A stretch of 24,328 nucleotides of DNA from a virus, in IMG/VR virus record IMGVR_UViG_3300010367_000069, positions 1-24,328 of that record. One strand, written 5' to 3'. The translations under genes and the position numbers were made by a program. This document shows, piece by piece, positions 5,343-20,250 of the stretch; within the stretch, counting starts at the first letter, position 1, and every line of letters begins with the position of its first letter. The notes below the pieces were generated by a model. The model saw only the letters and a list, made by a program, of their open reading frames with translations, was not told where the DNA came from and searched no databases.

Positions 5343-5927
5343 GTGGCCGACCGGACCGGCGCTGAGCGCCAGGCTCGTTACAGAGCGCACAAGCGGGGCA
5401 ACCACTCGCGCTGCGACCCCGACCGCTGCGACGGCAGCACCGTCACCGTCACGCCCCGAGTCACGCGTGACAGCGTCACACCATCACCCACTGGCCTGGG
5501 AACTCGCGGCCGACGGCTGTGGCGGGACGTCCTCGACGAGGGTGAGCTGGCACCGGCTGAACGGGTGCTGCTGGAGGAGGCGTGCCGGCTCGCGGACCGC
5601 CTCGACCGCCTCGACCAGGTCCTGCGCGGCGACATCGACGTGTGGATGCGTCTGCTCGTCGACGACGACGCCCGCGAGGCCGAGATCGTCGTTGACAAGG
5701 TCCTGTCTGAGGCCCGCCAGCAGCAGGTCGCGCTGAAGCAGCTCCTGGCCGAGCTGCGCCAGTCTCGCGGCACGGCAGGTGCCGCACCCCGGCGCGGGAT
5801 GGGCGGTCAGGTGCGCACCTCGGGAACCGGCGCCCGCCGGCCGGCGGGAGTGAAGCCCTCGGGAGGTGGCGTCCTTGCCGACCTCACCTCTCGGCTTGCC
5901 GGCCGCGGCAACTCGACCGCGGGTTGA
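5343..5927 (+). CDS. terminase small subunit
   Basis: The product (194 aa from GTG 5343, preceded by a G-rich possible ribosome site) begins V-A-D-R-T-G-A-E-R-Q-A-R-Y-R-A-H-K-R-G, a basic DNA-binding N-terminus. It continues G-L-G-T-R-G-R-R-L-W-R-D-V-L and L-A-P-A-E-R-V-L-L-E-E-A-C-R-L-A-D-R-L-D-R-L-D. The latter two blocks are characteristic of small terminases of actinobacterial phages: a helical oligomerisation core that recognises viral DNA and hands it to the large subunit. The Cys-rich bit S-R-C-D-P-D-R-C may bind metal. The frame is open upstream through the HNH gene, so the start is uncertain; earlier codons (for example GTG 5244) are possible. It overlaps the large subunit gene by 53 bases. 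Confidence 0.8.
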   Translation: MADRTGAERQARYRAHKRGNHSRCDPDRCDGSTVTVTPRVTRDSVTPSPTGLGTRGRRLWRDVLDEGELAPAERVLLEEACRLADRLDRLDQVLRGDIDVWMRLLVDDDAREAEIVVDKVLSEARQQQVALKQLLAELRQSRGTAGAAPRRGMGGQVRTSGTGARRPAGVKPSGGGVLADLTSRLAGRGNSTAG

Positions 5928-7437
5928 CACTCACCCGCCCAGCGAGCGCAGCCACGGGCAGATGGCCATCGCTCTCGCCGAGGCTGCCGGCCTGTTCCTA
6001 GATCCGTGGCAGCAGGATTCGCTGACCACGATGCTCGCCGTCGACGACGTCAGCCGGTGGGTGTGCTTCGAGTACTGCGAGCTGGTCAGCCGACAAAACG
6101 GCAAGGGCGCCATCTTGGAGGCCCGGGTCCTGGCCGGGATCCTGCTGTTCGGCGAGAAGCTGATTATGTGGACGGCCCACGAGTACAAGACGGCGATCGA
6201 GCTGTTCATCCGGCTCAAGGTGCTGTTCCGCCGCCTGATTGAAGCCGGGGAGCTCGGCGAGGGCGACGTCAAGGTCTATCACGACAACAACGGCCGCGGT
6301 TTCGACCTGCTGGTAGCCGATGGCGTGGTGCTCGACGAGCCGCGGCGGATCCGGTTCATCGCCCGCTCGGAGGGTTCCGGTCGAGGGTTCAGCGGCGATC
6401 TGGTCATCATCGACGAGGCGTACGCGTATACCCCGGAGCAGCAGTCCGCATTGTTGCCGACGATGTCGGCCCGACCGAACCCGCAGATCGTCTACGCGTC
6501 GTCGCCGCCGCTGAAGGGCGACTCAGGTGAGGTGCTGTACTCGCTGCGCTACCGCGGCGACCCGGGCATCGAGCGCGAGCAGGGCGACGAGCCGTGGGCG
6601 CAGGACGACGCCCTGGCCTATCGGGACTGGGGCTTGGCCGGCGACCTCGACAACCTCGGCGGCGTGGATCTGGCGGACCGGGCGAACTGGGCGCGAACGA
6701 ACCCGGCGGTCGGTACCCGGATCCCGTGGAAGTTCGTCGAGAAAGAGTTCCGGGCGATGGTCAAGCGGACACCGGCGTCGTTCGCACGCGAGCGGCTCGG
6801 GATCTGGCCGTTGGAGATCAAGCCGAAGGCCACCGGCGGGGTCATCCCTGACGAGCTGTGGCACGACTTGGCCGTGGTCGCCGAGCGGCCCGCGGACGTG
6901 GCGATGGCGATTGTGGTCAACCACAAGCGCACGCACACCGCGATCGCCGCGGTCGGGCCGCGCGGGGACGGCCGGATGCAGGTCTCCATCGTGGACTACC
7001 GGCCCGGCACGGCCTGGGTGGTGGCTCGCGCCCAGCAGCTTCAGGAGCGTTGGAACCCGGTCGGGTGGGCGGTGCAGGACAAGGGCCCGTCGGCGACCCT
7101 ACTCCAGCCGCTGCGCGAGGCCGGGATTGCCGAGCCGGAGGAACGCGACGAGCCGCAGCGTGGCCAGGTGGCGGTGCCGTGGGCGGCTGATGTCGCCCTC
7201 GCCTACGGGCTGGTGATCGACGCGTTGGCCGAACGAACGACGGTCCACCTCGATGAGGCGCCGCTGAACCTGGCCGCCGCCGGCGCGACCACCCGGCCGC
7301 TCGGGGCGGGGACGACCTGGGACTACAAGACCGAGGGCGCCGAGCTGCTCCAGGCGTGGACCCTGGCCCACTGGCTGTACGTGACCTGGTCCCCGCTGCT
7401 CGTGCGCGAATACGACCCGCTGGCCAACGTGTGGTGA
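5875..7437 (+). CDS. terminase large subunit
   Basis: This is the packaging motor ATPase and nuclease. Start TTG 5875 is chosen because GGGAGG (5861-5866) lies 8 bases before it; an in-frame GTG at 5866 overlaps that site. The 520-residue length is normal. D-P-W-Q opens the ATPase domain. The Walker A-like loop is S-R-Q-N-G-K-G at residues 72-78, Walker B is L-V-I-I-D-E-A with Asp180 and Glu181, and the coupling motif is Y-A-S-S-P-P around 207-212. The C-terminal nuclease domain begins near residue 335 and retains a later Asp in V-Q-D-K-G-P-S. The first catalytic Asp expected by comparison with relatives (F-D-V-x-x-D-R pattern) reads I-V-V-N-H-K-R, with Val347 at that place. Neighbours are the small subunit and portal, as usual. 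Confidence 0.95.
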   Translation: MPTSPLGLPAAATRPRVDTHPPSERSHGQMAIALAEAAGLFLDPWQQDSLTTMLAVDDVSRWVCFEYCELVSRQNGKGAILEARVLAGILLFGEKLIMWTAHEYKTAIELFIRLKVLFRRLIEAGELGEGDVKVYHDNNGRGFDLLVADGVVLDEPRRIRFIARSEGSGRGFSGDLVIIDEAYAYTPEQQSALLPTMSARPNPQIVYASSPPLKGDSGEVLYSLRYRGDPGIEREQGDEPWAQDDALAYRDWGLAGDLDNLGGVDLADRANWARTNPAVGTRIPWKFVEKEFRAMVKRTPASFARERLGIWPLEIKPKATGGVIPDELWHDLAVVAERPADVAMAIVVNHKRTHTAIAAVGPRGDGRMQVSIVDYRPGTAWVVARAQQLQERWNPVGWAVQDKGPSATLLQPLREAGIAEPEERDEPQRGQVAVPWAADVALAYGLVIDALAERTTVHLDEAPLNLAAAGATTRPLGAGTTWDYKTEGAELLQAWTLAHWLYVTWSPLLVREYDPLANVW

Positions 7438-7438
7438 C

Positions 7439-7459
7439 CCGAGAGGGGGCCTCTCGGTG
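7439..7459 (+). promoter_or_regulatory. hairpin covering the portal gene ribosome site
   Basis: CCGAGAGG (7439-7446) pairs perfectly with CCTCTCGG (7450-7457) across a GGG loop. The 5' arm and loop hold the purine-rich ribosome site, and the 3' arm ends on the G of the GTG start at 7457. Folding would hide the ribosome site. The arrangement matches those before the connector and tape measure genes. Confidence 0.6.
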
Positions 7460-8653
7460 GGTTGGCGTGAGTGGCTCGGGATCCGCACGCCGGGACGGCA
7501 CCGGATGGAGCAGCGGGCCGAGTGGGGTTCGGCGCACATCATCCCGCCGCCCGGCTCCGCGTGGGGTGGCGGCTACGACTCGGCGGCGGCGGACCTGCGC
7601 CGTTTCGAGACGGCGTTGCAGCAGGTGGCGGTCTGGTCGTCCATTGACCTGATCGCGTCGGTCGCGGCACAGCTGCCGATCGACACCTACGCCGGCACGG
7701 CGATCGTCCGCAGCCCGCGCACCGTGCTTGACCCGGGCGGTGACGGCTACGGCGCACCGGACTGGATCTACCAGTACCTGGTTTCGAAGCTGGCTCGGGG
7801 CAACACCTACGGCCGCCCGTACATGGACGACCGCGGCGACATGTACGTGCCGCTGCTGTACCCGGACGACGTGCACGGCTGGCGGGACCGCCAGACCGGC
7901 CGCGTGAAGTGGCGTGTCGACGGGCGGGGCCTGGGCGACGGCGAGACGATGTGGCACCGGCGTTCGTACGTGATGCCGGGCCGGCTGCTCGGGTTGTCGC
8001 CGATCGCGTATCACGCGACGACGATCGGGCAGGGCCTGTCCGCGGCCCGGTTCGGGATGGCGTGGTTCGCGGACGGGGCCCATCCCTCTGCGGTGCTGAC
8101 GAACACCGAGGCGGAGATCGGTCAGACGCAGGCCGAAGGGGTCAAGGCGCGGTTTCTGGCGGCGATCCACGGTCGGCGTGAGCCGCTGGTGCTGGGCAAG
8201 GGCTGGGACTGGAAGGCGTTGCAGGTCGCGCCGGATGAGTCGCAGTTCCTGGAGACCCAGAAGTTCAGCGCGGCGGATAGTGCCCGGATCTATGGCCCGA
8301 ACGTGGCCGAGATCCTGGGTTACGAGACCGGCGGCAGCATGACGTACGCCAACGTTGAGCAACGGTCGATCGATTTCCTCAAATTCACGCTGAATCGGTG
8401 GCTGCGCGACGTCGAGGCGGCCCTGTCGTCGCTGATCAAGCCGGCCTGGACGGTGCGTTTCAACCGTGGGGCGCTGCTGGAAACGGATCTGTTGACCCGG
8501 TACCGGGCCCATTCGATCGGTATCGGCGCGAACTTCCTCACCCCGGATGAGGCGCGCGAGCTGGAGGACCGGCCGCCGCTCACACCGGAACAGAAAGCGG
8601 ATCTCGCCGCGATCACCGTCAAGGACCAAGCCAAGCTGAATGCGGGGACGTGA
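7457..8653 (+). CDS. portal protein (HK97 family)
   Basis: The 398-residue protein forms the dodecameric ring at the capsid vertex through which DNA enters and leaves. Typical HK97-portal features are visible. An early helix is A-V-W-S-S-I-D-L-I-A-S-V-A-A-Q-L-P. The L-A-R-G-N-T-Y-G-R-P block corresponds to the usual L-x-x-G-N-x-Y. M-P-G-R-L-L-G-L-S-P-I-A-Y matches the G-x-S-P-I/L element, and F-A-D-G-A-H-P-S-A-V-L follows. I-Y-G-P-N-V-A-E-I-L-G, S-M-T-Y-A-N-V-E-Q-R and F-L-T-P-D-E-A-R come later. GTG 7457 is the start, with the ribosome site GAGAGGGGG inside a hairpin. Length is close to the family norm. The stop overlaps the protease start (TGATG). Confidence 0.95.
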   Translation: MGWREWLGIRTPGRHRMEQRAEWGSAHIIPPPGSAWGGGYDSAAADLRRFETALQQVAVWSSIDLIASVAAQLPIDTYAGTAIVRSPRTVLDPGGDGYGAPDWIYQYLVSKLARGNTYGRPYMDDRGDMYVPLLYPDDVHGWRDRQTGRVKWRVDGRGLGDGETMWHRRSYVMPGRLLGLSPIAYHATTIGQGLSAARFGMAWFADGAHPSAVLTNTEAEIGQTQAEGVKARFLAAIHGRREPLVLGKGWDWKALQVAPDESQFLETQKFSAADSARIYGPNVAEILGYETGGSMTYANVEQRSIDFLKFTLNRWLRDVEAALSSLIKPAWTVRFNRGALLETDLLTRYRAHSIGIGANFLTPDEARELEDRPPLTPEQKADLAAITVKDQAKLNAGT

Positions 8654-12861: not shown

Positions 12862-13755
12862 GTGGCGGACTCCCTGTTCAGTGCGTCGCCGGTCGTTGGC
12901 GACTCCGCGGATGGCATGAGTATCAACACGGGCACCACGTTCCGGGTGACCGCCTCGGTGAGCTGCACGCATCACCGGTTCTTCGCCAGCACGGTGAGCT
13001 ACGTCGCGTCCGAGCCGACCGCCCGGCTGTACGAGCTGACCGCGGACGGCACCGGGAATCTGCTGGCAGAGAAGGCGTACGCGGCGGTCACCACCGGGGC
13101 GTACAACTCGGTGGCCTGGGACACGCCGGTGACGTTGACCCCTGGCACGTACTACCGCACCCAGCATTACGCGCCGAACGGTCACTACGTCGCGACCCTG
13201 AACGACCTGGCCTCGGATGTCACCTCGGCCGGTGGGCTGCTCGTGGCCCTCGCGGACGGCACTTCGACCGGTATCGGGACGCTGCACAACGGCAAGTTCA
13301 AGTACAGCGCGATCGGGCTGGCCGACAGCACGAGTGCGCAGACGAACTTCTTCGACGACGTGATCGTGGTCGCGACGGGCCAGTCCGCCGCCCTGGGTAT
13401 CGCCTCGGAGACGGACACCGCGATCGCGCTGGGCCGGGCCAAGGCCCGCCTGCTCGGCGTCGCCAGCACGGCCGAGGCGGCCCTGGCGCTGGCCCGGGTG
13501 AAGACCCGGGCGGTCGGGATCGCCGCCGAGGTCGACACCGCGCTGCCTATCGGGCGCGGTAAGGCCCGCCTACTCGGGATCGCCTCGACCACCGAAACAG
13601 CGCTGACGCTGGGCCGGGCCAAGGCCAAGCTGCTCGGCATCGCCACCGAAACCGACACCGCGCTACCGATCACCGCGCCGAGCGTCCCGAACGTCAAGGC
13701 CACCAGCACCGCGGCGGTGACCGCCAGGCGCACCTCCACCTCATCCGTGAGCTGA
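12862..13755 (+). CDS. DUF4082-domain structural protein with five 20-residue repeats
   Basis: GTG 12862 lies 9 bases after CAGGAGG (12847-12853). Residues 1-140 match the beta-sandwich DUF4082 domain: G-T-T-F-R-V-T-A-S-V-S-C-T-H-H-R-F-F, A-R-L-Y-E-L-T-A-D-G-T-G-N-L-L-A-E, V-A-W-D-T-P-V-T-L-T-P-G-T-Y-Y-R and H-Y-A-P-N-G-H-Y. The domain is usually seen in surface or glycan-associated proteins. Residues 177-276 are five 20-residue repeats of the type L-G-I-A-S-E-T-D-T-A. The last 20 residues are Ser/Thr-rich. This looks like a virion surface fibre or decoration with an adhesive head; binding to host glycans is inference. It sits between head genes and the connector. Confidence 0.8.
   Translation: MADSLFSASPVVGDSADGMSINTGTTFRVTASVSCTHHRFFASTVSYVASEPTARLYELTADGTGNLLAEKAYAAVTTGAYNSVAWDTPVTLTPGTYYRTQHYAPNGHYVATLNDLASDVTSAGGLLVALADGTSTGIGTLHNGKFKYSAIGLADSTSAQTNFFDDVIVVATGQSAALGIASETDTAIALGRAKARLLGVASTAEAALALARVKTRAVGIAAEVDTALPIGRGKARLLGIASTTETALTLGRAKAKLLGIATETDTALPITAPSVPNVKATSTAAVTARRTSTSSVS
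13390..13689 (+). repeat. five in-frame 60-base repeats in the DUF4082 gene
   Basis: Units at 13390, 13450, 13510, 13570 and 13630 encode 20-residue copies with the core L/V-G-I/V-A-x-x-x-D/E-T/A-A-L and mostly ending G/A-R-x-K-A/T-R/K. The copies differ at many bases, so the array is old or selected at protein level. Similar L-G-x-A-x-E-x-D-T-A repeats occur in other actinobacterial phage structural proteins. Confidence 0.9.
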
Positions 13756-13761
13756 CCCGAG

Positions 13762-13780
13762 ACGGGGGTGATCCCCCGTG
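13762..13780 (+). promoter_or_regulatory. hairpin covering the connector gene ribosome site
   Basis: ACGGGGG (13762-13768) pairs with CCCCCGT (13773-13779) across TGAT. The G-run is the only ribosome-site candidate and the 3' arm reaches into the GTG start at 13778. The core CGGGGGTGATCCCCCGTG differs at one base from the sequence before the tape measure gene. Confidence 0.65.
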
Positions 13781-14674
13781 TCGGCGGTCGTTCTGTACAA
13801 CCACGCCAACGAGATCGCGACGGTCAGCAACACGTTCGCGGTCAGCGGTGTCGCGACGGACCCGACGACCGTGTCTCTGGTCGTCACGGACCCGGACGGC
13901 ACCAGCATCACATACACCTACGCAGCCAGCCAGATCACCAAGACCGGCACTGGGGCGTACAGCAAGGACATCGCCTGCTCGTCGACCAATCCGGGCCGGT
14001 GGTTGGCCGAATGGGTCGGCACCGGCTCGGCCTCGGACGTCGAGCCGCTCACCTGGACCACGTACGAGCCGGCCCGCCAGTACGCCGCCCTCGCGGAGCT
14101 ACGCGGCCGGGTAGACCGCACCGACACCGTCCGCGACGACGAGCTGCTCGCCGCGATCGAAGCCGCGTCCCGGCAGATCGATGACGACACCGGTCGGCGG
14201 TTCTGGCTCGACAGCGTCGTGTCTGCACGGATCTTCAACCCGCGGTACCGCATCATCCGCACCGTCGACGGCGAGCAGCTGCTCGTCGACGACATCGGCT
14301 CCACGACGGGCCTGATCGTGGAGATCGGCTCCGTGTCGGCCGGCGTGTTCACAGGCAGCGCGATCACCGATTACGAGCCGATGCCGGACAACTCGCCGAC
14401 GAGCGGCTGGCCGGTCACCGCGCTGCTGCGCCCCCTGAACGTGTGGCGGATCACCCCGCTGACCCGCATTCGGATCACCGCGAGGTGGGGGTGGCCACGG
14501 GTGCCGACCCCGATCCATGACGCGACCCTGCTGCTCGCGCACCGCCGCTACCGGCGCCGTGGCAGCCCTGAGGGTGTGGCCGGGTTCGGCGACATGGGTG
14601 TGGTGCGGGTCTCGCGGTACGACCCGGACTACGACAAGGCGATCTCCCGCTACATCCTGCCCGGGTTCGCCTAA
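13778..14674 (+). CDS. head-tail connector (gp6-like) with N-terminal Ig-like domain
   Basis: The 298-residue product has two parts. Residues 1-95 are an Ig-like beta domain (T-F-A-V-S-G-V-A-T-D-P-T-T-V-S-L-V-V-T-D-P-D-G-T-S, then Y-T-Y-A-A-S-Q-I-T-K-T-G-T-G-A-Y-S-K-D-I) of the kind often encoded as a separate protein in related phages. From about residue 100 the sequence L-A-E-L-R-G-R-V-D and D-E-L-L-A-A-I-E-A-A-S-R-Q-I-D-D-D-T-G-R-R-F matches the helical core of HK97 gp6/SPP1 gp15-type adaptors, which form the ring under the portal. The C-terminal R-I-T-A-R-W-G-W-P and A-H-R-R-Y-R-R-R-G-S-P-E-G-V fit as well. Its stop overlaps the next start (TAATG). Confidence 0.85.
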   Translation: MSAVVLYNHANEIATVSNTFAVSGVATDPTTVSLVVTDPDGTSITYTYAASQITKTGTGAYSKDIACSSTNPGRWLAEWVGTGSASDVEPLTWTTYEPARQYAALAELRGRVDRTDTVRDDELLAAIEAASRQIDDDTGRRFWLDSVVSARIFNPRYRIIRTVDGEQLLVDDIGSTTGLIVEIGSVSAGVFTGSAITDYEPMPDNSPTSGWPVTALLRPLNVWRITPLTRIRITARWGWPRVPTPIHDATLLLAHRRYRRRGSPEGVAGFGDMGVVRVSRYDPDYDKAISRYILPGFA

Positions 14675-15087
14675 TGGACTTCGAGGCGATCCAGCAGGGC
14701 CTGGCCGACGCGGCCGACGTCATCACGGGCTTGCAGTGCCTGCCCTCGCTCAGCGACGCGATCGACCCGCCCACGTTCGCGCCCACCGAGGTCGAGGGCG
14801 AGTACGACCAGACGTTCAGCGGTGGCGGCGACGGAATGGTCGAAACGCTGTTCACCTGCGGCGTGTTCACCTCCCGCGGCGACACCGAAGCCGGTCGGGC
14901 GCTGCTCGTCGGGTTCATCAACCCGTCCGGCGCCACCTCGGTCAAGGCGGCATTGCAGGCCGACAAGACGCTCGGCGGCGCCGCGAAAACCCTGCATGTG
15001 GGCCGGTTCCGAGGCATGTACCGGCTCTACCAAATCGGCGGCGTGGAGTACCTCGGCGCCCTCATCGACGTCCGCGTCTGGGCCTGA
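14674..15087 (+). CDS. tail terminator / tail completion-like protein
   Basis: ATG 14674 shares its A with the TAA of the connector gene. The 137-residue protein starts M-D-F-E-A-I-Q-Q-G-L-A-D-A-A-D-V-I-T-G-L-Q-C and proceeds to T-S-V-K-A-A-L-Q-A-D-K-T-L-G-G-A-A-K-T-L and G-G-V-E-Y-L-G-A-L-I-D-V-R-V. A helix at the start, a central strand pair and the final G-V-E-Y-L-x-A-x-x-D-V-x-V are what I associate with the tail terminator/minor tail U-like family placed between connector and tail tube genes in actinobacterial siphoviruses. It would cap the tail tube and join the head. A head-closure role is the alternative. Confidence 0.7.
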   Translation: MDFEAIQQGLADAADVITGLQCLPSLSDAIDPPTFAPTEVEGEYDQTFSGGGDGMVETLFTCGVFTSRGDTEAGRALLVGFINPSGATSVKAALQADKTLGGAAKTLHVGRFRGMYRLYQIGGVEYLGALIDVRVWA

Positions 15088-15097
15088 GGAGGGCGCT

Positions 15098-15856
15098 ATG
15101 AGTCTGTCTCCGCAGGTGCTCACGGACTGTCGGATCTACATCGCGACGGCCGACGCGACCGGGGTTTCGAACAAGATCGAGTACAGCGTCGAGTACGAAG
15201 AACTGGACCGCACCACGTTCGCCAGCGGCGGGGCGAAGGAACGCTGTGGCGGCCTGGCCGACATGAGCGCCAACATCGGGCACTTCTGGCAGGCCGGCGA
15301 CCTGAGCATGCCGGACGACACGTTCTGGGCGAACCTGGGTGTCGCGACGGTCCCGCTCACGGTGATCCCGACCTCGGGTGCTGTTGGGACGCTGGCGTAT
15401 GTCACGCGGGTGCTGGAGTGCAGCTACAAGCCGATGGGTGAGGTCGGCAAGCTGCTGTCCGCGACGGTGGACCTGAAGGGCACCTGGCCGGTTGCCCGTG
15501 GGGCGGTGCTGCATCCGCAGGGCACGGCGCGCACGGCGACCGGGACGGGTACGGCGCAGCAGCTCGGGGCGTTGTCCTCGGCTCAGAGCCTGTATGTGAC
15601 GTACCACCTGCTGTCGATCACGGCCGATTCCGGCTCGCCCACACTCACGGTGAAGATCCAGTCGGATGACAACTCCGGCTTTACCAGCGCGACCGACAGG
15701 GGCACGTTCACCGTCTCGTCGGCGCTGGACGGCCAGACGATGAAGATCGACGGCGCGATCACGGATGACTATTGGCGGGCCGCGTGGACTGTCGCCGGTG
15801 GCGCCACCAATCCCAGCGTCCTGTTCGCGGTAGCCGCGGGGATCGCCCACAAGTAG
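15098..15856 (+). CDS. tail tube (major tail) protein A with C-terminal extension
   Basis: ATG 15098 is preceded by GAGGAGGG (15086-15093). Residues 1-135 have a tail-tube-like pattern: V-L-T-D-C-R-I-Y-I-A-T-A, N-K-I-E-Y-S-V-E-Y-E-E-L-D-R-T-T-F, P-L-T-V-I-P-T-S-G-A-V-G and G-E-V-G-K-L-L-S-A-T-V-D-L-K-G. This region aligns with the whole of the gene at 15953, so the two are paralogues. Residues 145-252 are an extra beta domain (Y-V-T-Y-H-L-L-S-I-T-A-D-S-G-S-P-T-L-T-V-K-I-Q-S-D-D-N-S-G-F) found at the ends of several phage virion proteins, which may project from the tail surface. An intrinsic terminator follows. Confidence 0.75.
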   Translation: MSLSPQVLTDCRIYIATADATGVSNKIEYSVEYEELDRTTFASGGAKERCGGLADMSANIGHFWQAGDLSMPDDTFWANLGVATVPLTVIPTSGAVGTLAYVTRVLECSYKPMGEVGKLLSATVDLKGTWPVARGAVLHPQGTARTATGTGTAQQLGALSSAQSLYVTYHLLSITADSGSPTLTVKIQSDDNSGFTSATDRGTFTVSSALDGQTMKIDGAITDDYWRAAWTVAGGATNPSVLFAVAAGIAHK

Positions 15857-15903
15857 ACCTCTCCGGCCGCGCGTGGGCCGGCCATTCGACCTGACCAACC
15901 CTG

Positions 15904-15932
15904 ACCCGCCCGGAGGCCCGTGGCGGGTTTTT
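15904..15932 (+). terminator. Rho-independent terminator between the two tail tube genes
   Basis: ACCCGCC (15904-15910) pairs with GGCGGGT (15922-15928), followed by TTTTT at 15928-15932, the only GC hairpin with a proper T run seen in the window. A further hairpin CCGGCC (15863-15868) / GGCCGG (15876-15881) lies just upstream, 7 bases after the stop codon. The next gene starts 20 bases beyond the T run. Confidence 0.8.
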
Positions 15933-15952
15933 CGCGTGCCCGGGAGCCGAAG

Positions 15953-16369
15953 ATGACCTTCACGCCCACCGTCCTGACCGACGCGTACATCAACCTGGCG
16001 GCCGGAACGTTGGTCGCGGACCACGCGAACAAGGTCGAGCTGAGCATCGACTACGAGGAGTTGGAGACCACCACGTTCGGCCAGACCGCCAAGGTCCGCC
16101 GGGGTGGATTGCAGGACGGCAGCGTCGCGCTGACCTTTATCAACAACTTCACCGCGTCGGCCCTGGACAGCATCTTCTGGGGCATCATCAACACCGTCGT
16201 CACGTACGAGATCAGGCCCACCTCGTCGGCAGTCAGTACCGGAAATCCGAAATACACCGGTAGCTTGTGGATCAAGGAATGGAAGCCAATCGGCGGTGAC
16301 GTCGGCAAGCTGGTCACCGTTTCGGTCAGCTTCCCAACATCTGGCCTGAACAGCCGCGCGACGAGCTAG
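15953..16369 (+). CDS. tail tube (major tail) protein B
   Basis: ATG 15953 is chosen with GGGAG (15942-15946) 6 bases upstream; an in-frame GTG at 15920 lies inside the terminator hairpin and is rejected. The 138-residue protein parallels the first domain of the preceding tube protein. V-L-T-D-A-Y-I-N-L-A-A-G-T, N-K-V-E-L-S-I-D-Y-E-E-L-E-T-T-T-F, Y-E-I-R-P-T-S-S-A-V and G-G-D-V-G-K-L-V-T-V-S-V-S-F line up with V-L-T-D-C, N-K-I-E-Y-S-V-E-Y-E-E-L, L-T-V-I-P-T-S-G-A-V and G-E-V-G-K-L-L-S-A-T-V. It lacks the C-terminal extension. Together the pair probably builds the tail tube; which one dominates cannot be told from sequence. Confidence 0.8.
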   Translation: MTFTPTVLTDAYINLAAGTLVADHANKVELSIDYEELETTTFGQTAKVRRGGLQDGSVALTFINNFTASALDSIFWGIINTVVTYEIRPTSSAVSTGNPKYTGSLWIKEWKPIGGDVGKLVTVSVSFPTSGLNSRATS

Positions 16370-16371
16370 CC

Positions 16372-16857
16372 GTGATCGAGGTCCAGGTCGACGCGCGCAA
16401 CCTGACCGCGCTCGGCCGGGTCCTACGCGCCGAGGCCGACGGCGCCGCGTTGAAGAAAGACCTCGTCGTCGCGATCCGGGCAGCGGTCTCGCCAGGTGTC
16501 AGCGCGGTGCAGGGCAAGTTGCGGGCGATCCCGTCGAAGGGCATCTCGCCCAGCCCGTCGCTCAGTTCGTACCTGGCGAGTCGGGTCAAGGTGTCGGTCC
16601 GCTTCGCCGGCCGGTCGGCCGGGGTGCGAATCCGTATCGCGCAGACGCCGACCCTGCGCGGGTTCAAGATGGCCGCCCGGCGGCTGAACCGCACCCATTG
16701 GCGGCACCCGGTGTACGGCCGGGGCGTCTGGGTGACGCAGCAGTCGCCGATCCCGGACTACTTCGACGGCACGCTGTCGGGCCACAAGAGCGAGTACCAC
16801 GCCGCGGTGATCGCCGCGTGCGAAGCCTGCGCTGCGCGCATCGGAAGGAGATTCTGA
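16372..16857 (+). CDS. HK97 gp10-like head-tail/tail completion protein
   Basis: The GTG start at 16372 is two bases after the previous stop. The 161-residue, very basic protein begins V-I-E-V-Q-V-D-A-R-N-L-T-A-L-G-R-V-L-R-A-E-A. It contains a long helical segment and then V-K-V-S-V-R-F-A-G-R-S-A-G-V-R-I-R-I, followed by H-W-R-H-P-V-Y-G-R-G-V-W-V-T-Q and P-D-Y-F-D. The helix, strand pair and R-H-P-x-Y/F-G-R element are typical of HK97 gp10-like proteins of the head-tail joint. In many siphoviruses this gene lies between connector and tube genes; here it follows the tube genes. No strong ribosome site is visible, so translation may be coupled. Confidence 0.75.
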   Translation: MIEVQVDARNLTALGRVLRAEADGAALKKDLVVAIRAAVSPGVSAVQGKLRAIPSKGISPSPSLSSYLASRVKVSVRFAGRSAGVRIRIAQTPTLRGFKMAARRLNRTHWRHPVYGRGVWVTQQSPIPDYFDGTLSGHKSEYHAAVIAACEACAARIGRRF

Positions 16858-16861
16858 GCCC

Positions 16862-17266
16862 GTGATCCTGACCCACGCCCCGGCTGACGGGGACAAGCGG
16901 GAGTGGCAGTTCCGCCCGGACGACATGCTCAACCACGAGAGTGAGGCCATCGAGCGGCGCACCGAGTGGACCTGGCAAGAGTTCCTCATGAACCTGCAAA
17001 AGGGTTCCACGTTGGCCCGACGCGCGTTGCTGTGGACGATGCTGCGCCGCGAGCACCACGTCCTGCGTTTCGAGGACGTGTCGTTCGCTCAGGGCGAGGT
17101 GTCGGTGGACTACGAGCGCGGTGAGCTGGCCGAACTGCTGGAGCAGGCGCAGGCCGCCCCGGACTCCACGCCGAACAAGGACGGGATGATCCGCTTCCTG
17201 GAGGCCGAGATGGCGAAGCGGCCGGATTCGGGCTCGGGAAAAGCCCTCGCGAGCAGCGAAGGCTGA
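16862..17266 (+). CDS. tail assembly chaperone (short, unshifted product)
   Basis: GTG 16862 has GGAAGGAG (16843-16850) 11 bases upstream, a rather long spacing. The 134-residue protein is hydrophilic and acidic at its end. R-P-D-D-M-L-N-H-E-S-E-A-I-E-R-R-T-E-W-T-W-Q-E-F-L matches the helical core of actinobacterial phage tail assembly chaperones, and R-R-A-L-L-W-T-M-L-R-R-E-H fits as well. It lies just before the tape measure region, as lambda G does. By analogy with lambda gpG it coats the tape measure and guides tail tube polymerisation. The frame stops at 17264-17266 unless the ribosome slips at 17236-17242. Confidence 0.85.
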   Translation: MILTHAPADGDKREWQFRPDDMLNHESEAIERRTEWTWQEFLMNLQKGSTLARRALLWTMLRREHHVLRFEDVSFAQGEVSVDYERGELAELLEQAQAAPDSTPNKDGMIRFLEAEMAKRPDSGSGKALASSEG

Positions 17267-17394
17267 AGTACGCGTACGCGCTGTCGCAGCGCGGTTGTCC
17301 ACCGCCGATCGCGCGCCAGTGCACGGTCGCCGAGCTGGACCACCTGATCGCCGGGGTCGACCAGGAGAACGAGGAAGCTGAGCGGCGGCGCTGA
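16862..17394 (+). CDS. tail assembly chaperone long form by -1 ribosomal frameshift
   Basis: Reading 16862-17242, then continuing in the -1 frame from base 17242 to the TGA at 17392-17394, gives a 177-residue fusion. The added part reads S-P-R-E-Q-R-R-L-K-Y-A-Y-A-L-S-Q-R-G-C-P-P-P-I and T-V-A-E-L-D-H-L-I-A-G-V-D-Q-E-N-E-E-A-E-R-R-R. This corresponds to the T part of lambda gpGT, which contacts tail tube subunits. The segment has no good start of its own, which argues that it is made only by frameshifting. It ends exactly one base before the reverse-strand DUF4429 gene begins its stop codon. Confidence 0.8.
17236..17264 (+). other. -1 frameshift signal: slippery heptamer and hairpin
   Basis: In the chaperone frame the codons are TCG GGA AAA, giving the heptamer G GGA AAA at 17236-17242, a canonical X XXY YYZ site close to lambda's GGGAAAG. 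From the last A a stem can form, 17242-17250 with 17256-17264, nine pairs with one C-A mismatch and loop GAGCA. The stem starts closer to the heptamer than usual, so its base would be melted by the ribosome. Confidence 0.8.
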
Positions 17395-17676
17395 CTACCG
17401 GCGGATTGCGGCCATAAGGTGCTCGTGCAGTGCCTGGAACTCAGCGAGCTGCTTGCCCGTGAAGAGCACTCGCCAAGGGTGATTGGGCATCATGCCCTGC
17501 CTGGTTGCGCTCAGGGTCGAGATCGTCAGCTTGCCGGAGGACAGGAAGCCGGGCAGTTGCAGGTCGACCCCGACGATCTGGTGGACCGGCGCGCTGACCC
17601 AGCCGAAGCCGCGATGCTTGATCTTCAGAGTTGCGCCATCGTAGGTAACGGTCGCGCCCGCGCCTTTGATCTCCAC
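17395..17676 (-). CDS. DUF4429-like protein on the reverse strand
   Basis: From GTG at 17676 the 93-residue product reads V-E-I-K-G-A-G-A-T-V-T-Y-D-G-A-T-L-K-I-K-H-R-G-F-G. Next come an I-V-G-V-D-L-Q-L-P-G-F-L-S-S-G-K-L-T-I-S strand segment and W-R-V-L-F-T-G-K-Q-L-A-E-F-Q-A-L-H-E-H-L. This is the layout of DUF4429, a PH-like beta fold closed by a helix and common in actinobacterial proteins (often with SHOCT). The function is unknown. Its stop (17395-17397) directly abuts the frameshifted chaperone stop on the other strand, and it diverges from the tape measure gene. Its codon ends are less GC-biased than those of the neighbours (for example TTG, AAA, GTT, ACT), suggesting separate acquisition. 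No clear ribosome site precedes GTG 17676. Confidence 0.85.
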   Translation of the reverse strand: MEIKGAGATVTYDGATLKIKHRGFGWVSAPVHQIVGVDLQLPGFLSSGKLTISTLSATRQGMMPNHPWRVLFTGKQLAEFQALHEHLMAAIRR

Positions 17677-17763
17677 GGGGCGTCATCGTTCCGGACGCAA
17701 GGCAGTGATCGGCATCAGTCAGTCGGCCCGCATTGACCGGATGATCGGATCACGCTGAGCAAG

Positions 17764-17781
17764 CGGGGGTGATCCTCCGTG
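17764..17781 (+). promoter_or_regulatory. hairpin covering the tape measure gene ribosome site
   Basis: CGGGGG (17764-17769) pairs with CCTCCG (17774-17779) over TGAT with one G-U pair. The 3' arm ends on the G of the GTG start at 17779. The 18 bases differ from those before the connector gene at one position, the change that makes the G-U pair. The 102-base gap 17677-17778 also must carry any promoter for the reverse DUF4429 gene; no clear one was seen. Confidence 0.65.
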
Positions 17782-20250
17782 AGCGACACCGCCGTGATCT
17801 TCAACATCATCGGCAGGGATCTCACCGGCCCGGCGATCGGCGGGGCGGGCAGCTCCTTTAACAAGTTGGCCCTCGGCATGGCGGCCGGCGCCGCGTTTTT
17901 CGGCGCCAAGTCCATCGACGCAGCGGCGGATTTCCAGACGGCGATGACCCGCGTGCAGACCGGCGCGGGTGAGGCTGAGTCCAACATCAAGTCCGATATG
18001 GCCGGCATCCTCCAGATGATGGGGGAGGTCGGTGCGAAATCCGAGGACCTCGCCAAGGGTCTGTATACGGTCAACTCGGCAGGCTTCCACGGCGCCGCTG
18101 GCATCGATGTCCTGAAGATCGCGGCGATGGGCGCGAGGGTCGGCGCCGCCGACCTGAACACCACCGTCGATGCGGTCACCACGGCGTTGAACGCGTATCA
18201 CATGGGTGCGGATCAGGCGGCGCAGGCAACGAATGCCCTGATCGCGGCCGAGGGTCAGGGGAAGACCACCCTGGAGGCCCTCGCCGGGTCGCTGTCGAAG
18301 GTCGCGCCAACTGCCGCAGTCGCGCATGTGAGCCTCAACGAGGTTCTCGGGGCGATGGCCACGATGACGGCGCAGGGCACGCCGGCCGCCGTCGCAGCGA
18401 CCTACCTGAACCAGACGATCAAGGCCCTGGCACATCCGACCAACGTGGCCAAGCTGGAGATGGAAGCTCTCGGCCTGTCATCGATCAAGGTCAGCCAGAA
18501 CCTCGGCCAGAACGGGTTGGCCAGCACCCTGAAGATGCTGACCGATGCGATTCAGTCGAAGATGGGCCCGGCCGGGCTGGTGCTGCTGGATCGGCTGAAG
18601 AAGGTCGGCCAAAACACCGAGGAATGGCAGAAGATCGTCTCGAATCTGCCACGCGCACAGCAGACGTACATCGCCGCCCTGGCGGACATGGTTGGTGGTT
18701 CGAAGTCGATGTCGGCCGCGTTGCAGCTGACCGGCGACAACATGGCTGTATTCCAGCACAACACCGAGGTCATCAGCGAAAAGGTGAAGGCCGGCGGCCA
18801 AACCATCGAGGGCTGGGCCGCGGTTCAGAAGAACTTCAACCAGAGAATGGCTGAAACCAAGGGCACGTTGGAAGCGGTCGGCATCCGGATCGGTAACTAC
18901 CTGCTGCCGTACGCGCAGAAGATGTTGGTGGCGATTCAGTCCGGGGTGAACTGGTTCGCGAAGCACGAGGCGGTGGCGAAGGGTCTCGCCATCGGCCTCG
19001 GGGTACTGGCCGGCGTGTTCGTCACGGCGAGGATCGCAACCATCGCGGCCACGTTGGCGACCAAGGAGTTCTGGGTCCAGACGAAGATCTGGACCGGCAT
19101 CACCAAGATGGCCGCCGCTGCCCAGTGGGTCTGGAATGCGGCGATGGCGATGAACCCCATCGGTCTGGTCATCATCGCGATCGTCGCCCTGGTCGCAGGG
19201 TTCGTCCTGCTGTGGACGCACTCGAAGGGTTTCCGCGATTTCTTCATCGGCATGTGGGGCCACATCTGGTCATTCATGAAGATGATCGGAGCCTGGTTCG
19301 CGGGCCCGTTCGCGCGATTCTTTGTCGAGCTGGGTAAGCAGCTCGCGGCGCCGTTCATTTGGGTCTGGCATTCGATTCTGGAGCCGTTCGTTCACGCGAC
19401 GGTCGCTTATTTTCAGTGGTGGTGGCGGATCGCGTCGAGCGTGATCCATCTGGTCGCTGACATCTTCACCATGTACCTGGCCCCGGCGATCATGACCGTG
19501 TGGCACGGCGTGGTCGACCCGTTCGTCAGAGCCACCGTCGCTTACTTCCAGTGGCTGTGGGGAATCGCTGTCGCCGCCTGGCACGGGATAGCGGACGGGG
19601 CGATCTGGCTGTACCAGACCGTCCTCACGCCGATCGGCCACGGAATCGCGATGGTCGCCGGCTGGATCGGTGACGGGTTCATGTGGCTCTGGCACCAGGC
19701 CATCGAGCCCGCCGTTCACGGGATCGCCGCCGCCGCGACCTGGGTGTACGACACGGTGATCCTGCCGATCTGGCATGCGATCCTCGCGGCGACGCACTGG
19801 CTCGGAGACGGCATCAGCACGGTGTTCGGCGCGATCGCCGGGTTTATCTCCGGCGCCTTTCATCAGGCCGTGGGCGTCGCGAAAGGCGCGATCAACGCAC
19901 TGATCTCCGTCGTCAATGGCGCCATCCGCGGCATCGACAGCATCCTCACCAAGGCCAACTCGCTGCCGGGCGTGAACTTCCCCATGATCCCGCAGATTCC
20001 CCACTTGGCCAGCGGCGGGATTGTGCAGGTCGGCGAGCACGGCACGGAGATCGTGCGGCTGCCCTCGGGGTCGGCGGTGTACCCGCACGGCAGCGTGCCG
20101 GCGGACATGGCCGGCGGTGGTGGCCGGCGGATGGAGCTGGGCGTGCGCCCAGGAGCTGACGCCGCCCTCGGAACGCTGCTCCAGACGCTGTTCCGGCACG
20201 GCTACGTGCAGGTCTTCGTGGACGGCAAGCAGGTCTCCGTCTCAGCCTGA
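17779..20250 (+). CDS. tape measure protein
   Basis: The 823-residue protein sets tail length and is threaded through the tube. The N-terminal part (about 1-330) has the phage minor tail/tape measure signature: A-A-D-F-Q-T-A-M-T-R-V-Q-T-G-A-G, L-A-K-G-L-Y-T-V-N-S-A-G and T-L-E-A-L-A-G-S-L-S-K-V-A-P-T-A-A. H-V-S-L-N-E-V-L-G-A-M-A-T-M-T-A-Q-G-T-P also belongs to it. Two hydrophobic stretches lie at about 401-426 and 462-479. A Trp-rich repetitive region follows to about 690, with a 45-residue periodic element P-F-V-x-A-T-V-A-Y-F-Q-W. The C-terminus has L-A-S-G-G-I-V-x-V-G-E-H-G-x-E, which is very common at tape measure ends. At about 1.5 Angstrom per residue (general rule) the tail would be near 120 nm. 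Confidence 0.95.
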   Translation: MSDTAVIFNIIGRDLTGPAIGGAGSSFNKLALGMAAGAAFFGAKSIDAAADFQTAMTRVQTGAGEAESNIKSDMAGILQMMGEVGAKSEDLAKGLYTVNSAGFHGAAGIDVLKIAAMGARVGAADLNTTVDAVTTALNAYHMGADQAAQATNALIAAEGQGKTTLEALAGSLSKVAPTAAVAHVSLNEVLGAMATMTAQGTPAAVAATYLNQTIKALAHPTNVAKLEMEALGLSSIKVSQNLGQNGLASTLKMLTDAIQSKMGPAGLVLLDRLKKVGQNTEEWQKIVSNLPRAQQTYIAALADMVGGSKSMSAALQLTGDNMAVFQHNTEVISEKVKAGGQTIEGWAAVQKNFNQRMAETKGTLEAVGIRIGNYLLPYAQKMLVAIQSGVNWFAKHEAVAKGLAIGLGVLAGVFVTARIATIAATLATKEFWVQTKIWTGITKMAAAAQWVWNAAMAMNPIGLVIIAIVALVAGFVLLWTHSKGFRDFFIGMWGHIWSFMKMIGAWFAGPFARFFVELGKQLAAPFIWVWHSILEPFVHATVAYFQWWWRIASSVIHLVADIFTMYLAPAIMTVWHGVVDPFVRATVAYFQWLWGIAVAAWHGIADGAIWLYQTVLTPIGHGIAMVAGWIGDGFMWLWHQAIEPAVHGIAAAATWVYDTVILPIWHAILAATHWLGDGISTVFGAIAGFISGAFHQAVGVAKGAINALISVVNGAIRGIDSILTKANSLPGVNFPMIPQIPHLASGGIVQVGEHGTEIVRLPSGSAVYPHGSVPADMAGGGGRRMELGVRPGADAALGTLLQTLFRHGYVQVFVDGKQVSVSA

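Follow-up and report, generated by a model that had tools for sequence, protein, structure and literature searches.

The question raised by this locus is whether a hairpin that recurs, with a single change, over the start codons of two late genes of one virus is a control element in its own right, or the consequence of the ribosome binding site that it contains. The window, i.e., the whole stretch of DNA that was analysed, is a complete IMG/VR virus record of 24,328 bases, and includes a siphovirus late region with genes for the terminase, portal, capsid, head-tail connector, a tail protein, and the tape measure protein (TMP). Two 18-mers set on the GTG starts of the connector and TMP genes (Table 1) differ only in the C at position 13775, which is a T at 17776, and as this base is paired with G13766 or G17767, respectively, the change turns a G-C pair into a G-U pair. 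The original prediction of near-identical hairpins whose one difference preserves the pairing was confirmed by both the sequence and RNAfold, while the phrog_442 and phrog_1272 matches bore out its naming of the two genes, and the shared sequence does belong to the leaders rather than the coding sequences, and concerns translation initiation. Both GTG starts are credible from comparison with relatives, in which homologous TMPs begin at the same residue and connector homologues nearby, and the TMP N-terminus can be aligned from residue 1 with that of the related locus L004 (MSDTAVIFNIIGRDL / MTDTAVIFDIIGRDL).

In each leader, RNAfold predicts one single hairpin with a UGAU loop, of -14.0 kcal/mol before the connector and -11.3 kcal/mol before the TMP, so that a stable stem would cover both the SD (Shine-Dalgarno) sequence and the start codon. 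The corresponding z-scores are -3.5 and -3.4 against shuffled 20-mers, and only about -1.6 when the hairpins are folded in a 75-nt context. The SD core makes up the 5' arm, as had been proposed together with the TGAT loop, while the 3' arm, formed in hairpin 1 by the spacer and the GT of the GTG, does not stop at the first base of the start codon, given that the stem is one base longer and reaches the second.

Table 1. Positions of the leader elements in the window and of the genes that surround them.
Feature	Position	Strand	Description and basis
18-mer 1, CGGGGGTGATCCCCCGTG	13763-13780	+	on GTG start of head-tail connector gene
18-mer 2, CGGGGGTGATCCTCCGTG	17764-17781	+	on GTG start of TMP gene
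Hairpin 1	13762-13779	+	7-bp stem, A13762-T13779 to G13768-C13773; loop TGAT 13769-13772; sequence and RNAfold
Hairpin 2	17763-17780	+	7-bp stem including two G-U pairs; loop TGAT 17770-17773; sequence and RNAfold
Hairpin 3	7439-7457	+	CCGAGAGG-GGG-CCTCTCGG; 8-bp stem, -13.6 kcal/mol
Extended SD of connector gene, GGGGGTGATCC	13764-13774	+	sequence; 16S pairing
Extended SD of TMP gene, GGGGGTGATCC	17765-17775	+	sequence; 16S pairing
Terminase large subunit gene, upstream neighbour of portal	5866-7437	+	phrog_9, E=2e-52
Portal protein gene	7457-8653	+	phrog_12, E=7e-49
Gene upstream of connector, DUF4082-containing	12862-13755	+	its TGA 22 nt before connector start, about 6 nt before hairpin 1
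Head-tail connector/adaptor gene	13778-14674	+	GTG start; phrog_442, E=7e-22
TMP gene	17779-20250	+	GTG start; phrog_1272, E=1e-51, and many other TMP families

A repeat of 17 letters in 18 is unremarkable by itself in this window, which contains 12 such pairs where Markov-resampled windows have 0-4, and the identity between the copies is not continued beyond the edges of the 18-mer. The part that is not due to chance is the same register of both copies on a start codon, and this can for the most part be put down to the make-up of the 18-mer, in which 11 letters complement the rRNA tail and 3 are the start codon itself. The 11-nt sequence GGGGGTGATCC pairs with the 3' end of the 16S rRNA, GGATCACCTCC, at every position, with one G-U, so that the uninterrupted complementarity beyond GGAGG comes to 11 nt in both leaders, a fact overlooked by the original prediction. 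The tail used here for actinobacterial 16S rRNA, GGCTGGATCACCTCCTTTCT (complement AGAAAGGAGGTGATCC), comes from a Kitasatospora genome, in which it was verified to terminate the SSU rRNA; this genome is of host type, the host of the window being inferred solely from relatives.

In the window, GGGGGTGATCC occurs exactly twice, at these two leaders, with no third copy, and in both the spacing from GGGGG to GTG is 9 nt, which suits a start codon. The remaining 4 letters of the 18-mer are the C at the foot of the stem and the YCC of the spacer, and since both copies consist of a complete extended SD plus GTG, their near-identity is mostly accounted for (14 of the 18 letters). The 3' arm is also explained in part by composition, given that CCC is frequent before GTG (17 of 120 control SD leaders).

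The leaders are thus, in our estimation, probably ordinary translation initiation regions, in which an unusually long SD is folded back on its spacer and is opened by the 30S subunit or by a terminating ribosome. In this mechanism, GGGGGUGAUCC would pair with the actinobacterial 16S tail over 11 nt, and the hairpin would arise when the YCC spacer and the initial bases of the GUG fold back onto the run of G; the 16S tail may begin to pair at the UGAU loop, which is exposed, before displacing the 3' arm. Such a site would be structured and still usable because the duplex of the SD with the 16S tail (-20.8 kcal/mol) is much stronger than the hairpins (-8.6 to -14.0 kcal/mol). At the portal, the connector, and the majority of other starts with the exact element, a co-oriented gene terminates only a few nucleotides upstream, and the ribosome that finishes it could open the stem, which would couple the translation of both genes. 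The near-identity of the copies would then reflect a common rRNA target and a shared C-rich spacer, although recombination of a start-site cassette may have contributed to it. The leader hairpin is, on this account, mainly a known kind of translation-start element, and not a conserved new control device.

The long SD is not distributed evenly among the genes. A DNA-only search of viral contigs with GGGGGTGATCCnnnGTG returned 108 stretches, and of the proteins that begin at credible sites of this kind, 26 were scanned for families: 11 are TMPs, the others include portal, neck/adaptor, terminase, and minor tail proteins, as well as several with no match, and there is no capsid, tail tube, or chaperone among them. 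Judged from these family matches, GGGGGTGATCCnnnGTG is a signature of low-copy virion genes in high-GC viruses. In proviruses that carry a TMP, which were retrieved by TMP protein similarity and not by leader, the TMP leaders pair with the 16S tail over the greatest length (a mean of 8.6 nt, versus 5.9 nt for capsid and approximately 5.8 nt for unclassified genes; p=1e-14 for TMP versus all others), with gene starts at the comparison loci being assigned by a simple script based on third-position G+C and SD score, so that some background starts are wrong.

Among 16 named actinophages, the same trend is weaker (p=0.001 relative to other genes), and there it is absent in the comparison with capsid and no TMP leader has this element, and single-query searches with the TMPs of two loci, L078 and L090, recovered near copies only. 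The long SD is a real TMP-associated feature, and this association is the part worth keeping. The prophages of Streptomyces sp. CB01201 (L302/L303) are further examples with a TMP leader of this kind. The identical 18-mer is also seen, in other sequence surroundings, ahead of unrelated genes of unrelated viruses.

A further hairpin in the window stands before the portal gene. It begins 1 nt past the terminase TGA (7435-7437), its 3' arm ends at the first base of the portal GTG, and it has the layout of the other two and an unrelated sequence. Genes other than those for TMP, portal, and connector can also have strong leader hairpins: a phrog_290 tail protein gene in two other viral sequences (L009 at 3641, L010 at 181) has a very strong one together with an extended SD (cccgagggggtgatcgccgGTG; -20.7 kcal/mol in L009), and they are also found at other non-TMP genes.

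The stem itself may, on the other hand, have been selected, throttling or timing the initiation of virion proteins that are needed in few copies, with the strong SD setting the balance, an explanation that we regard as possible but unlikely. The portal and the connector are generally present in 12 copies each in a virion, and the tape measure in about 6. The three hairpins of the window do precede portal, connector, and TMP genes and not the capsid or tail tube, and in other viruses the strict element is found before TMP, neck, and minor tail genes, so the earlier idea of a device for low-copy proteins stands as far as the genes are concerned, most carriers elsewhere being low-copy virion genes. 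In named actinophages (L314-L329), the mean leader energies of capsid, tail tube, and chaperone genes (-3.6, -4.8, and -4.3 kcal/mol) also indicate less structure than those of the TMP (-7.4) and terminase (-7.5). The energetics of the idea fare less well, given that the crude net energy is no worse at the three window leaders (-6.8, -3.8, and -1.8) than at the capsid leader (+2.9), and the strong hairpins at the phrog_290 and other non-TMP genes do not fit a restriction to this class.

Evidence of selection on the stem can be found in two places. The strict stem occurs above the product of the independent frequencies of its parts (6/33 versus 4%, p=0.002), and in the TMP leaders of the LPPV clade, where the stems vary (e.g., GAGGGAG-GTGA-CTCCCTC-ATG, CACGGGA-GGTGA-TCCCGTG, and GCCGGA-(SD)-TCCGGC-ATG), spacer swapping gave 7 observed stems of at least 7 bp versus 2.0 expected, with 0 of 300 shuffles reaching 7. 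As both the strict stem and this one TMP clade show an excess, the hairpin may be more than a by-product of the SD, and a shared regulatory device is possible. Against this, a general hairpin excess at TMP leaders was not replicated in the 22 non-LPPV prophage TMP leaders from Streptomycetaceae genomes (2 observed versus 2.08 expected from spacer-swapped controls). Neither the stem nor the extended SD is found in the closest TMPs (L004, L006, and L055; 62-65% identical) or the closest connectors (34-46% identical), while the TMP leader of L145, which shares only an N-terminal SDT.. start motif with the window TMP, has the extended SD and no stem.

The search for covariation in relatives, which had been proposed for this element, likewise yielded no compensatory pair, with one-sided G-U changes and no double-sided change: at the A/G-C/T pair with GGRGGTGATCCYCCGTG, window included, the family counts are G-C 6, G-U 2, A-U 1, and A-C 1, from too few real starts to be informative, and none of the 79 GGAGGTGATCCnnnATG sites has a full hairpin. 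The claim of a conserved control element shared by the two leaders was therefore not upheld, in view of the stemless nearest homologues, the missing compensatory changes, and the prophage leaders without excess. An excess of pyrimidine-only spacers at GGGGGTGATCCnnnGTG sites was also considered and rejected (9/33 versus 22% in control GTG leaders, p=0.28).

A third explanation, which seems rather unlikely, is that a start-site cassette, consisting of an upstream stop followed 3-8 nt later by CGGGGGTGATCCYCCGTG, has spread among actinobacterial phages and couples low-copy morphogenesis proteins, above all the TMP, to the translation of the preceding gene, the loop of the SD offering the 16S tail a toehold. 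The upstream co-oriented gene does end just before the hairpin at the portal and connector, with stop-to-start distances of 19 and 22 nt. An upstream gene could be called for six distinct strict-element starts, one being the window connector and the others lying in five further viruses, and in all six the distance is 19-23 nt, compared with 1 of 18 other GGGGGTGATCCnnnGTG sites (Fisher p=5e-5, in a post hoc test on six sites) and 3.6% of neighbour pairs in general. These distances fit the opening of the stem by a terminating ribosome that forms part of the preferred account, i.e., coupling by RNA unfolding (PMC12548453). The gene whose stop precedes the connector, which lies between the capsid and the connector, encodes several imperfect alanine-rich repeats (LGIAxExDTALxLxRxKxxLLGIA-like).

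Coupling cannot explain the TMP copy of the window, because no convincing co-oriented gene ends there: the TMP start lies approximately 370 nt past the end of the tail chaperone frame, with an opposite-strand gene in between, and a 37-codon frame that ends at 17758, upstream of the TMP, has weak coding bias. For the same reason, the SD must open this stem itself, and the modelled duplex energy (-20.8 kcal/mol) makes it plausible that it does so unaided. The tail chaperone-like gene (16862-17266) has a slippery heptamer, G GGA AAA, near its 3' end and an open -1 frame to 17394 (17230-17394), which is the usual siphophage programmed frameshift of the G/GT type. The intervening gene (17395-17676, - strand) is small and moron-like, encodes 93 amino acids with no PHROG or Pfam match, and is not found at this site in the closest relatives.

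This inserted gene also bears on the suggestion, which we find very doubtful, that a recent duplication or recombination transferred the leader cassette between the two gene starts, given that the window TMP leader follows the insertion and is unlike the leaders of its closest homologues. The identity ends, however, at the edges of the 18-mer, and as this sequence is found before unrelated genes of unrelated viruses, in other flanks, convergence on the rRNA complement suffices. Finally, it is highly improbable that a phage protein binds the hairpin, or a DNA inverted repeat CGGGGG-TGAT-CCCCCG, as an operator that represses both genes, an idea prompted by two near-identical inverted repeats in one genome whose lone difference preserves RNA pairing through G-U, and for which no evidence was found, since the SD, start codon, and spacer account for the shared positions, there is no third sequence copy in the window, no Rfam match in a scan of it, no covariation, and no candidate cognate protein, the portal hairpin matches in layout and not in sequence, and genomes of the host phylum contain the element no more often than expected by chance (1 hit in 298, 0 in 296). 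The sole chromosomal 18-mer in the 298 Streptomyces-family genomes is antisense within a 544-codon frame (an FAD-type oxygenase by eye), and is a chance match.

The preferred reading, that of an ordinary initiation region with a long SD, relates these leaders to known systems. Hairpins that sequester the ribosome binding site, of the MS2 coat gene type, were reportedly described by de Smit and van Duin in 1990 and 1994 (cited in PMC2176067), and the predicted folds resemble them in having the SD core in one arm, the start codon at the foot of the other, and a stability in the range that matters for initiation. Unlike in that type, the loop is here part of the SD, which would leave an open landing place for the 16S tail. 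Extended SDs in Staphylococcus aureus (PMC13009471) and in the length tests of Escherichia coli (PMC2176067) likewise have, immediately before the start codon, a long unbroken stretch that pairs with the 16S tail, whereas here the full 11 nt, including GATCC, are part of a predicted hairpin and are found in high-GC phages of actinobacterial type, where they are concentrated at TMP genes and further low-copy genes of the virion.

High output does not necessarily follow from a long SD, because the E. coli tests found SDs of more than 6 nt to be less efficient (PMC2176067). In the translational coupling by RNA unfolding of genes VII and IX of phage f1 (reviewed in PMC12548453), as at the portal and connector, an upstream stop lies a few nucleotides before a hairpin over the next ribosome site, in contrast with the window TMP copy, which has no convincing upstream gene to couple.

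Simple rRNA complementarity thus explains a striking repeat. It also points to a regularity that may be unreported, with a partial literature search finding no report of TMP leaders with an extended SD or such hairpins: the TMP genes of actinobacterial phages have the strongest SDs of the virion operon, even though few copies of the protein are needed. If the hairpin does gate the TMP site, it would offer a handle on how siphophages set the ratios of virion proteins from one long transcript.
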